A stretch of 13,348 nucleotides of DNA, from NCBI GenBank assembly GCA_023397045.1, contig JAEWUR010000334.1:1-13348 (forward strand), read 5' to 3'. Below, one piece after another: positions 8,227 through 11,057 of this stretch. The notes beneath the pieces are model-generated. The model worked only from the letters and a program-made list of their open reading frames with translations, did not search any database and was not told where the DNA came from. This DNA is from Planctomycetota bacterium. GTDB lineage: Bacteria; Planctomycetota; Planctomycetia; Pirellulales; Thermoguttaceae. Each line of letters starts with the position of its first letter. Position 1 is the stretch's first letter. The position numbers and the translations under genes were made by a program.

Positions 8227-10416
8227 ATGACCTTCGTCAACGTTTCACTCTTGGCCGGGACCGCATTGATCGCGTTGCCGATCATTTTGCATCTGGTCAT
8301 GCGCCGCCGGCCGACGTTGATGGAGTTTCCTGCGCTGCGGTTCATCCAGAAGCGGCACGACATGAACCAGCGCAGGCTGCAACTGCGTCATTTGATCCTG
8401 CTGCTCTTGCGCATCGCCGCGATTGCCCTGCTGGCGCTGGCGTTGGCTCGTCCGAGCGTCAAGCTGGCCGGAGCCATCGGCAATCGCGAGGCGCCCGTGG
8501 CGGCCGTGCTGGTGTTCGACGCCGCGCCGCACATGGAATACCGACACGAAAACAAGACGCGGCTCGAAGCCGCGCGCGAAATGGGGCTCTGGCTCGTTGC
8601 CCAACTGCCCGAGCAAAGCGAGGTGGCCGTGATGGACACCCGGCTCGGCACGTTGCCGGCGTTCCAGGTCGATCGTGGCCTGGCGCGCGAGCGGATCTCC
8701 CGGCTCGAAACGGTCTCGAACTCCCAATCGTTGCCGTCGGCCATCACGAGTGCGCTCGATCTGCTGCGCGAGAGTCGTCTCGATCGCAAAGAGTTGTACG
8801 TCTTCACCGATCTTGCGCGCGGCGCCTGGCCCGACACCCAGGCGGTCGCCCTCCAACAGAAACTCGATAAGCTGGCCGACCTCGGCGTGTATGTGATCGA
8901 CGTCGGCGTCGAGCATCCGCTCGACTTTGGGCTGGGCGAAGTGCGGCTTTCGAGCGACGTGCTGTCGAGCCGAAGCGCGCTGGGCATCGAAACCTCGCTA
9001 TCGAGCCTCGGCGATAGCGAACCGCGATCCGTCGAACTGCTCATGCGCGACGACGACGGTGTGCTGCAAAAACGAAGTCAACAGAGCCGTGACGTCACGC
9101 CCGGCGAACGCCAGCCGATCGAATTCCGCATCGGTGGGCTCGACCCCGGCACGCATCAAGGCATGGTCCGGATCGTTGGGCAAGACGGGTTGGCGGCGAA
9201 CGACACGCGGTTTTTCACGGTCGCCGTCAAACCGGCGTGGCGTCTGCTCGTGGCCGCGCCGGCGCCTGCCGAGAGCTATGCGTTGTTCTTCACCGAGGCC
9301 TTGGCGCCCGACCTGTATCGCAAGCGAGGCCAAGCCCGATTCGAATGCGATATCTGCGACGAAACCCAATTGGCCGACCGATCGCTGGACGACTACGCGG
9401 CCGTCTGCCTGTTGGACCCCAAGCCGATTACGCCCGCCGTGTGGAAGAAACTGACCGACTACGCCGCCGACGGGCATGGCGTGGCGGTCTTTTTGGGACG
9501 CAATGCCGTGCCGGTCGATTCGTTCAACGTTCCGCAAGCCCAGGAGTTGTTGCCCGGCAAACTGCTGCGTCAAGCACGACGACCCGATGGCGATCTGTAT
9601 CTCGCGCCGCGCGATGTTCAGCATCCAATTCTCCGGGCGTTCCGCGATGAGGCCGGCGCGATCCCCTGGGCGGCGTTTCCGGTATTTCGCTATTGGGAAC
9701 TCGACGAACCGTCGCCGGAAAAGGGGACAGTCCCCTTTTCTAGCGGCAAAGGGGGACAGTCCCCTTTTCCGGCCGGTGTGAGCGTGGTGTTGCCCTACAA
9801 CAATGGCAAGCCTGCGATCCTCGAACGGCCGATCGGGCGCGGCCGTATGCTGCTAATGACGACGCCCGTCTCGGATCGGCCGAACGAAGAGCCGTGGAAC
9901 CTGCTGCCGGTAGGCGAGGCCTGGCCGTTCCTGATCCTCGCCAATCAGATGGCGAACTACCTGGTCGGCGGCGGCGACTTGCAGTTGAACTACCTGGCCG
10001 GGCAGACCGCCATCTTGCCGATGGAGACCTCGGACCAACGCGTGAGCCTCATGCTGTTCATGCCCGACAAGATGAGTCTGCCCATCTCGGCCGACCTGAA
10101 ACGCGACGAATTGGCCGTCACCGCGACCGAGCAGGTCGGCAACTATCGGCTTCAGGCCGGCGGCGCCTCGGGCGTCGATCTCGGATTCAGCGTCAATTAT
10201 GCCGAAGACCAAACCCAGCTCGACCGATTGAACGACGAAGAGTTGGGCCTGATCTTTGGTCCGGTCAAATATCGCCTCGCCCGGACGCGCGAACAGATCG
10301 ACCGCGACATCAGCCTGGGCCGCGTCGGCCAAGAGCTGTTCCCGCCGCTGATCGTCCTCGTTGCGATCCTGCTGGCCTTCGAGATGCTCGTTGCCAACCG
10401 ATTTTATAAGGAATAA
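8227..10416 (+). CDS. BatA-like membrane protein with degenerate VWA domain and internal palindrome insertion
   Basis: The protein has 729 residues. The N-terminus is the BatA-type double membrane region: VSLLAGTALIALPIILHLV (6-24), the motif RRRPTLMEFPALRFI, then a second helix at 55-75 ending ALARP. A VWA-like domain follows at about 90-235, but its MIDAS reads DAAPH (98-102) instead of DxSxS, so metal binding is doubtful. The middle part (about 240-690) includes an immunoglobulin-like stretch and a glutamine-amidotransferase-like region without an obvious catalytic triad (RPIGRGRMLLMTTPVSD). A final helix PPLIVLVAILLAFEMLVANRF anchors the C-terminus. Residues about 497-515 (PEKGTVPFSSGKGGQSPFPA) are encoded by a double palindrome and look like an in-frame insertion. 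It follows DUF58 by 8 nt, so translation is probably coupled. It likely forms a membrane complex with the other VWA protein of the operon. Confidence 0.88.
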   Translation: MTFVNVSLLAGTALIALPIILHLVMRRRPTLMEFPALRFIQKRHDMNQRRLQLRHLILLLLRIAAIALLALALARPSVKLAGAIGNREAPVAAVLVFDAAPHMEYRHENKTRLEAAREMGLWLVAQLPEQSEVAVMDTRLGTLPAFQVDRGLARERISRLETVSNSQSLPSAITSALDLLRESRLDRKELYVFTDLARGAWPDTQAVALQQKLDKLADLGVYVIDVGVEHPLDFGLGEVRLSSDVLSSRSALGIETSLSSLGDSEPRSVELLMRDDDGVLQKRSQQSRDVTPGERQPIEFRIGGLDPGTHQGMVRIVGQDGLAANDTRFFTVAVKPAWRLLVAAPAPAESYALFFTEALAPDLYRKRGQARFECDICDETQLADRSLDDYAAVCLLDPKPITPAVWKKLTDYAADGHGVAVFLGRNAVPVDSFNVPQAQELLPGKLLRQARRPDGDLYLAPRDVQHPILRAFRDEAGAIPWAAFPVFRYWELDEPSPEKGTVPFSSGKGGQSPFPAGVSVVLPYNNGKPAILERPIGRGRMLLMTTPVSDRPNEEPWNLLPVGEAWPFLILANQMANYLVGGGDLQLNYLAGQTAILPMETSDQRVSLMLFMPDKMSLPISADLKRDELAVTATEQVGNYRLQAGGASGVDLGFSVNYAEDQTQLDRLNDEELGLIFGPVKYRLARTREQIDRDISLGRVGQELFPPLIVLVAILLAFEMLVANRFYKE
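9715..9772. repeat. REP-like double palindrome inserted in the BatA-like coding sequence
   Basis: An 18-nt unit, GGGGACAGTCCCCTTTTC, occurs exactly twice (9723-9740 and 9752-9769). Each copy is itself palindromic around GGGGAC-A-GTCCCC, with 11-bp arms in the first copy. The outer segments 9715-9735 and 9752-9772 are also inverted repeats of each other, with only the central base mismatched. The block keeps the reading frame and encodes a low-complexity linker. The structure is like a BIME/REP pair or the in-frame palindromic elements of Rickettsia. No transposase is present in the window. Confidence 0.8.
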
Positions 10417-10453: not shown

Positions 10454-10484
10454 ATCTTGAGGTCGCAATTGGCGACCTCAAGAT
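10454..10484. repeat. Near-perfect 31-nt palindrome upstream of the ORF6N gene
   Basis: Arms ATCTTGAGGTCGC (10454-10466) and GCGACCTCAAGAT (10472-10484) are perfect complements around a 5-nt loop, 45 bp before the ORF6N start codon. The site shares TTGAGGT and ACCTCAAG flanks and most of the centre with a palindrome inside the ORF6N gene. Read in the frame that begins at 10445, it encodes [15 protein letters not shown] and then a stop, which resembles the ORF6N family motif. It may be an operator of the ORF6N product, a decayed fragment of an older copy, or the core of a mobile unit. Confidence 0.8.
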
Positions 10485-10529
10485 TTGGATAACCAGCCCT
10501 TGGGCGGGGGTGTTGCGACAAGGAAAATC

Positions 10530-11057
10530 ATGATGGCAGACAACCGTTCCTTGATTCCTGTTGAACAAATCGAGCGTTCGATTCTTGTGATCCGAGGCCA
10601 GAAAGTCATTCTGGATAAAGACTTAGCGTTATTGTACGGGGTTGAGACGAAGTTCTTGGTGCGGGCCGTCAAACGCAATTTTGACCGGTTTCCGTCGGAT
10701 TTTATGTTCCAATTGTCTTCCGAGGAGTTCGACCATTTGAGGTGCCAACTTGGTACCTCAAGTTCCCGGGGCGGTCGCCGGTACGCACCCTATGCCTTCA
10801 CCGAACAGGGTGTCGCCATGCTGTCGAGCGTTCTGCGAAGTTCTCGGGCGGTATCGGTCAATATCGAGATTATGCGGGCCTTCGTGCGATTGCGACAGAT
10901 GCTTTCCTCGCACGCCGATCTGGCGAGAAAGGTCGAAGCGTTGGAAAAGAAGTACGACAGCCAGTTCAAAGTCGTTTTCGATGCCCTGCGGCAACTGATG
11001 CAGCCGCCAGAACCAAAAGACAAACGCGCGATCGGATTCCATGTTAAACATCCCTAA
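10530..11057 (+). CDS. ORF6N-domain DNA-binding protein inserted in the MoxR/VWA operon
   Basis: The protein has 175 residues. The ORF6N domain spans about 8-105: [20 protein letters not shown] (9-28), [40 protein letters not shown], then the family core [40 protein letters not shown] predicted coiled coil follows ([22 protein letters not shown]), and the protein ends with the family tail [12 protein letters not shown]6N proteins are KilA-N-like DNA binders first known from phages; bacterial solitary copies have no settled function. ATG 10530 is chosen for the upstream AAGGA at 5-6 nt, a stronger Shine-Dalgarno sequence than those of the operon genes. Base use is visibly more AT-rich than in its neighbours. 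The location breaks an otherwise continuous operon, which suggests transfer. The upstream TTG start at 10485 overlaps the palindrome and is not favoured. Confidence 0.9.
10737..10761. repeat. Palindrome inside the ORF6N coding sequence matching the upstream one
   Basis: This 25-nt segment pairs at 11 of 12 positions around its central base. It starts TTGAGGTGCC and ends GGTACCTCAA, and it encodes LRCQLGTS (residues 70-77). Over 26 nt from TTGAGGT to ACCTCAAG it matches the upstream palindrome at 20 positions, and both copies are in the same relative frame. Codon choice thus preserves a DNA-level symmetry. Confidence 0.7.

Follow-up and report, generated by a model that had tools for sequence, protein, structure and literature searches.

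A palindrome within the DNA-binding-domain code of ORF6N genes covaries with the predicted recognition helix and may serve as a built-in operator

The internal gal operator is a regulator site that lies within a gene, and initiator genes such as lambda O with ori-lambda and pT181 repC with its origin contain their own origin of replication. REP elements, which are paired with RAYT transposases, are short palindromes associated with a gene that has copies nearby. Phage “antirepressors” carry DNA-binding domains of three related kinds, KilA-N, Bro-N and ORF6N. In Cluster A mycobacteriophages, the repressor bound at many stoperators stops transcription elongation (passages of PMC9283540 and PMC6550527).

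The ORF6N genes analyzed here resemble each of these systems in some respect. Like the intragenic operators, which can repress, they hold a predicted regulator site inside a coding sequence, and repression from it is what we infer. Unlike the gal operator, the site is embedded where the regulator's DNA-binding domain is encoded; it recurs throughout the family, in either of two reading frames, and varies in step with the residues that would read it. As in the initiator genes, a DNA-binding protein has its site, here a predicted one, within the gene that encodes it, and changes in the site accompany changes in specificity; in contrast to them, ORF6N shows no evident replication or nicking function (Pfam finds no replication domain in the protein studied here), and the site is a dyad rather than a set of iterons or a nick site. 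Repressor and site motifs likewise diverge together in the Cluster A stoperators, which, according to passages of PMC6550527, are asymmetric and spread over the phage genome, whereas the ORF6N palindrome lies inside its reader's own gene and is found in bacterial chromosomes, plasmids and viral contigs. No title or abstract in the open literature on ORF6N, to which the search was confined (subscription papers were outside its scope), describes an embedded site. One candidate precedent, PMC11172241, was set aside: its outline and passages from it do not concern a site of this kind.

The ORF6N gene and its two palindromes

The window, that is, the whole stretch of 13,348 bp that was analyzed, carries co-directional genes for a MoxR ATPase, a DUF58 protein, a BatA-like protein, an ORF6N protein and a GATase-like protein. 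The ORF6N gene (10530..11057, plus strand) encodes 175 amino acids and matches Pfam PF10543 (E 2.8e-34) at 117.7 bits, against a curated cut-off of 27.8. By sequence it also falls in the PHROG phage “anti-repressor” family phrog_4792 (E 1.7e-29), and it matches the profile of the PADLOC candidate defence gene PDC-S05 (E 6e-58), so the ORF6N family is being counted as a defence gene; PDC-S05 is treated in passages of PMC12988326. The family is large, with at least 7999 related proteins scored in one search. Neither NCBIfam nor Rfam gives a match in the window.

An AlphaFold model (me5e676000760; 37 sequences; mean pLDDT 74.9, a middling confidence) can be read as showing a helix-turn-helix formed by helices 29-36 and 40-49. 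The predicted recognition helix is encoded by codons 40-49 (10647..10676, plus strand), the stretch with the strongest covariation outside the palindrome described below. A search for solved relatives by sequence returned nothing convincing (best E 0.17), and the model has no significant fold relative (best E 0.085, a Ski-like protein).

Two palindromes are associated with this gene. The internal one (10737..10761; arms 10737-10747 and 10751-10761, centre 10748-10750) covers codons 70-78, encodes LRCQLGTS and is the predicted binding site of the encoded protein. It pairs at 11 of 12 positions around 10749, a level that only three centres in the window reach. The upstream one (10454..10484) pairs at 14 of 15 positions around 10469, the best centre in the window at that arm length. 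At an offset of 280 the copies are identical at 21 of 31 positions, compared with at most 12 at any other offset from 270 to 294. Of the six differences within their 26-nt common stretch, four are pairs 3 and 4 on both arms and two are central. The original prediction had described this pair of palindromes (31 nt with 14/15 pairs and 25 nt with 11/12), and a centre-by-centre scan of the window confirms it; its count of 20 identities in 26 positions, read by hand, and its translations (LRSQLATS upstream, LRCQLGTS internal) are also right.

How did the gene come to its present place? At the 12 planctomycete loci with the best-scoring GATase relatives, no ORF6N gene was found. The BatA and GATase relatives are close neighbours at four of these loci, less than about 100 nt apart by tblastn ends, and at the remaining eight no BatA relative was detected. 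With no ORF6N gene found at these loci, and with BatA and GATase adjacent in four, the ORF6N gene looks inserted in the lineage of the window. Within the open frame of the BatA-like gene, two GGGGACAGTCCCC-type palindrome copies lie at 9721-9772, and a palindrome resembling them is found upstream of the ORF6N gene at L009.

Conservation of the palindrome as a DNA word

In a scan of species genomes we took the best 80 of at least 586 relatives (54-73% identity, from many phyla). With the window included, 79 of 81 genes have a palindrome of at least 9/12 pairs in the aligned codons; in the other two (L031 and L061) it is found by eye after a small shift. A larger set came from a Pfam search in four phyla, in which 34 of 149, 31 of 200, 39 of 148 and 43 of 148 genomes matched, together with further regions of some genomes and with plasmid and phage records. 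There, 245 of 249 distinct copies spanning the motif have at least 8/11 pairs around a 3-nt centre, and the best stem in the motif segment has a median score of 12, compared with 4 for 720 control segments taken from these genes. In 242 of the 288 distinct ORF6N genes from all sources at least 10/11 arm bases are paired, versus 0.47% of synonymous recodings that preserve the protein and the codon usage of the gene. Outer pairs vary on both arms (TTGAGG/CCTCAA, TTGAAA/TTTCAA, TTGATA/TATCAA, TTAAGG/CCTTAA, TGGAGG/CCTCCA), and inner pairs vary as S-V, S-A, C-G and F-G codon pairs. Moreover, 16 copies carry the same core in a second reading frame (for example EVVTNCDHL instead of LRSQIVTS), so the conserved unit, as read from these alignments, is a DNA word and not a peptide. 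Thirteen of the 288 genes lack a site with at least 9/11 pairs and a 3-nt centre. One of the family, L132, has lost its internal site and has a site of its own type upstream.

Two explanations dispense with a DNA-binding protein. Quasi-palindrome template switching could keep the arms alike by mutation, with no selection on the site, and it would account for two-sided changes that alter the amino acids of both arms in one step. It predicts neither the persistence of the core in two frames nor its near-universality in the ORF6N gene, and the link between residues and bases described below is observed but unpredicted by it; we regard it as very improbable. The palindrome could instead form an mRNA hairpin controlling translation or stability, as stems of at least 11 pairs with 3-nt centres would allow. 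With 11 pairs in each of 229 first-frame genes there are 2519 cells, of which 2395 hold a Watson-Crick pair, 46 an A-C mismatch and 15 a sense-strand G-U pair, the rest being other combinations. The excess of A-C mismatches over G-U pairs fits duplex DNA better than an mRNA stem, with codon constraints also shaping these counts, and the prediction of bases by helix residues points to duplex DNA as well. A hairpin seems no more credible than template switching.

Among Desulfobacterota genomes, 29 of the 43 with ORF6N contain a full-length palindrome of one particular site class, versus four of the 105 without it, an excess due in part to the gene itself carrying the palindrome. Lone ORF6N-type palindromes were also seen in Desulfobacterota genomes without a PF10543 match (L304, L309, L311, L312). 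At L312 the palindrome is followed by a scrap of an ORF6N C-terminus; those of L304, L309 and L311 may be relics or other targets.

Genes with the related domains likewise carry in-domain palindromes. Strong in-domain inverted repeats occur in 7 of 21 and 11 of 20 KilA-N genes (13.9 and 20.0 per 10 kb versus 1.4 and 0.8 in flanks) and in 4 of 24 and 11 of 26 Bro-N genes (7.9 and 19.0 per 10 kb versus 1.2 and 0.5); by this measure the majority of KilA-N and Bro-N genes are without a strong repeat. A coarser first scan gave 9 of 25 KilA-N loci (five being copies in one genome) versus 6 of 100 control stretches, and 5 of 25 Bro-N loci versus 5 of 100. The assessment of a residue-base code below concerns ORF6N only. 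Palindromes in KilA-N genes (L406-L434, L447-L476) and Bro-N genes (L376-L405, L477-L506) are similarly placed and show paired changes, as between L419 and L429, which suggests that KilA-N and Bro-N share the embedded-site design.

Residues of the predicted recognition helix and bases of the palindrome

We are interested in whether the protein and the palindrome vary together. Mutual information with palindrome bases 3-4 is highest for profile columns 65 (1.06 nats), 95 (0.88), 62 (0.84) and 92 (0.66), of which 95 and 92 are encoded by the palindrome itself. Columns 66 (0.29), 64 (0.21) and 61 (0.19) follow, and all other columns outside the palindrome have at most 0.16. Columns 65, 62, 66, 64 and 61 correspond to residues 45, 42, 46, 44 and 41 of the window's protein, all within the predicted helix 40-49; Arg45 is encoded at 10662..10664 and Lys41 with Phe42 at 10650..10655 (both plus strand). 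For bases 6-7, column 61 (0.55) is highest outside the palindrome, and these bases also covary with the non-helix columns 105 (0.40), 100 (0.25) and 87 (0.20).

The codons of columns 65 and 61 lie 25-30 codons upstream of the palindrome. Local linkage was considered as the cause of the covariation at pairs 3-4 and rejected: columns 67-86, which span the interval between helix and palindrome, are not among the top 25. A contact between residues is an unlikely cause too, because the link persists in the second frame, where the encoded residues differ. At base 3, 12 of the 16 second-frame copies match on both arms and three on one arm, and one is without the helix.

The association takes the form of a simple rule. 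On the 5' arm, pair 3 is A when column 65 is Gln, G when it is Glu (accompanied by Arg at column 62) and C when it is Arg or Lys. Pair 4 is C with either Gln or Glu, T with Lys and G with Arg, in the last case often on a single arm. Where column 61 is Lys, pair 6 is G in 135 of 135 genes; where it is Arg, pair 6 is A in 44, asymmetric in 32 and G in six. Classical contact preferences join Arg or Lys to guanine, Glu to cytosine and Gln to adenine. Besides the 13 genes without a site, 13 of the 288 have at least two inverted repeats in the segment, which leaves 262 single-site genes. At base 3, 251 of these match the rule, six do so on one arm only, three are mismatches (L135, L144, L370) and two have another residue; with symmetric base 3 the score is 251 of 254, compared with a mean of 104.9 and a maximum of 129 in 2000 shuffles. 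Each of the 13 multi-repeat genes has among its repeats one that matches its own type, although for L237 the match is confined to one arm; some of the second repeats are chance occurrences.

A tree was computed with the columns of the helix and the palindrome left out; on it, base 3 has 71 changes and residue class 74. One parsimony assignment places changes of both on the same 70 branches, with four branches on which only the residue class changes and one on which only the base does. There are 75 disjoint pairs of genes that are more than 60% identical but unlike at base 3; residue class differs within all 75, and in 74 of them the code holds for both genes. The pair-3 rule was fixed beforehand and then applied to a separate collection, ORF6N genes from viral contigs: 40 motif-spanning genes with exact duplicates removed, some near-duplicates left, and profile-split genes such as L336 excluded. 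Counting as a match any inverted repeat in the segment that has at least 8/11 pairs and carries the predicted base in each of its arms, 35 match, one (L370) mismatches and four are unscorable.

This covariation of residues with bases makes it very probable that the ORF6N coding sequence is bound by its own product. The proposal that the protein recognizes a site inside its own gene is thereby strongly supported at the level of sequence comparison, and a predicted cognate site inside the gene, as expected of an intragenic operator, is what the covariation identifies. Since site and protein have changed together many times, part of a DNA-recognition code can be read from the genes themselves.

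What does the code say about the two copies in the window? Arg45 calls for C at pair 3 and Lys41 for G at pair 6, and the internal site carries both bases; at pair 4 its arms are mismatched (G/T). The upstream copy, with G and C at pairs 3 and 4, is of specificity type G3-C4. This type belongs to relatives in which columns 62 and 65 are Arg and Glu, whereas the window's protein predicts C at pair 3. The copies thus differ at pairs 3-4, where specificity lies, and the upstream copy is probably not an operator of the window's own protein but either the target of a different ORF6N protein or the remnant of a different ORF6N gene. It translates as 12 residues followed by a stop, which is suggestive of a relic.

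Lone sites around other ORF6N genes were counted under a strict definition that demands an intact centre, and the window's own upstream copy is therefore left out. Lone palindromes lie within 400 bp upstream at no fewer than 30 loci (289 genes were examined, some with incomplete flanks). The 42 sites there amount to 395 per Mb, versus 17 per Mb at 400-1300 bp; 20 share the type of the gene beside them and 22 have a different one. Within 400 bp downstream there are nine, 88 versus 15.5 per Mb, four of the gene's own type and five of other types. A conserved upstream operator of the gene's own type was accordingly rejected, and the earlier idea of a paired upstream operator did not hold up, given these numbers and the mismatch of the window's copy at the specificity bases.

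A built-in operator, mobility and immunity

We propose that the ORF6N protein is a helix-turn-helix protein whose cognate palindrome is embedded in the code for its own DNA-binding domain and acts as a built-in operator, and we give this reading as a whole a probability of about 0.7. Residues 41 and 45, one helix turn apart, would read base pairs 6 and 3 in each half-site. A dimer bound about 210 bp into the gene (codons 70-78) would obstruct RNA polymerase, and such a roadblock would cap ORF6N expression behind whatever promoter the gene had landed. If the protein binds as predicted, action of the site as an operator or roadblock is our favoured but by no means secure expectation. An intragenic roadblock is independent of the promoter, which would suit a gene that moves between hosts and operons; and because site and reader overlap, they would be inherited and exchanged together, leaving specificity free to diverge. 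Extra sites of other types in or near some genes might put those genes under other ORF6N proteins.

Some genes carry several palindromes in a row, in frame and of differing types: three in L259, L258 and L172, and two in L247/L239, L231 and L069. L303 has three in a row (four by eye). At L255:1855-2220, four palindromes of differing types with a 34-bp period lie between an ORF6N fragment and a full ORF6N gene, and a further palindrome is found upstream of the fragment. At L082:1486-1527, two palindromes 27 bp apart stand upstream of two small genes; this site is in the same genome as L044, apparently on a different contig. Deletion or truncation endpoints adjoin a palindrome in the decayed ORF6N genes L107:3118-3240, L260:1883-2164, L287 and L252.

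Might the palindrome instead help the gene to spread, insert or exchange its variable segment? The tandem arrays, with periods of 27-39 bp in and near genes, keep a mobility role under consideration, as do the truncated or deleted copies that break beside a palindrome (L107 by eye; L260, L287, L252) and the position of the window's ORF6N gene between two genes that are closely adjacent in related planctomycetes. Some of the apparent breaks are tandem insertions or frameshifts, however, and mobility leaves unexplained why helix residues predict bases. The Pfam and PHROG profiles reveal no nuclease or recombinase domain in the ORF6N protein, and sites are few: one site type was found 0-3 times per genome in 30 host genomes (reversed-pattern control, 0). 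As with REP/RAYT, a short palindrome is associated with a gene that has copies nearby; unlike REP/RAYT, the searched type is this sparse, the palindrome is intragenic and Pfam finds no transposase domain in the gene. A REP element or other dispersed palindromic repeat was rejected on the same genome counts, the earlier suggestion of a selfish unit or recombination site finds little support in them, and we consider mobility improbable as the explanation of the palindrome.

Immunity or exclusion is compatible with the built-in operator rather than exclusive of it. Here a resident ORF6N protein would silence incoming gene copies or phages with the same site type, and specificities would diversify into groups, in the manner of phage repressors and their stoperators. 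The many specificity switches (the 71 base-3 changes on the tree), the several site types within some genes, the presence of ORF6N genes in viral contigs and plasmids, and the match to the candidate defence model PDC-S05 all agree with it. In the L032/L040 pair the palindrome region is, by eye, more diverged than the flanks. The joint divergence of Cluster A repressors and stoperator motifs, as given in passages of PMC6550527, offers a parallel. We hold immunity to be a possible but rather doubtful role.

Returning to the built-in operator, one could extend it, tentatively and with the odds against us, to the ORF6N, KilA-N and Bro-N superfamily as a whole: its genes might be self-addressed units, in which copies with the same address silence each other and tandem addresses cross-wire genes. 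If so, reader and address would travel and evolve as one, and there would be compatibility groups among mobile genes. For ORF6N itself, the 288 genes studied, and probably thousands overall, unite a DNA-binding protein with its predicted site; such naturally matched pairs allow a protein-DNA recognition code to be derived and tested. They offer a direct handle on the function of a very common family, and an example of a coding sequence under strong DNA-level constraint amid the code for the protein predicted to read it. The finding is also relevant to how a mobile regulator stays under its own control once it has been transferred.
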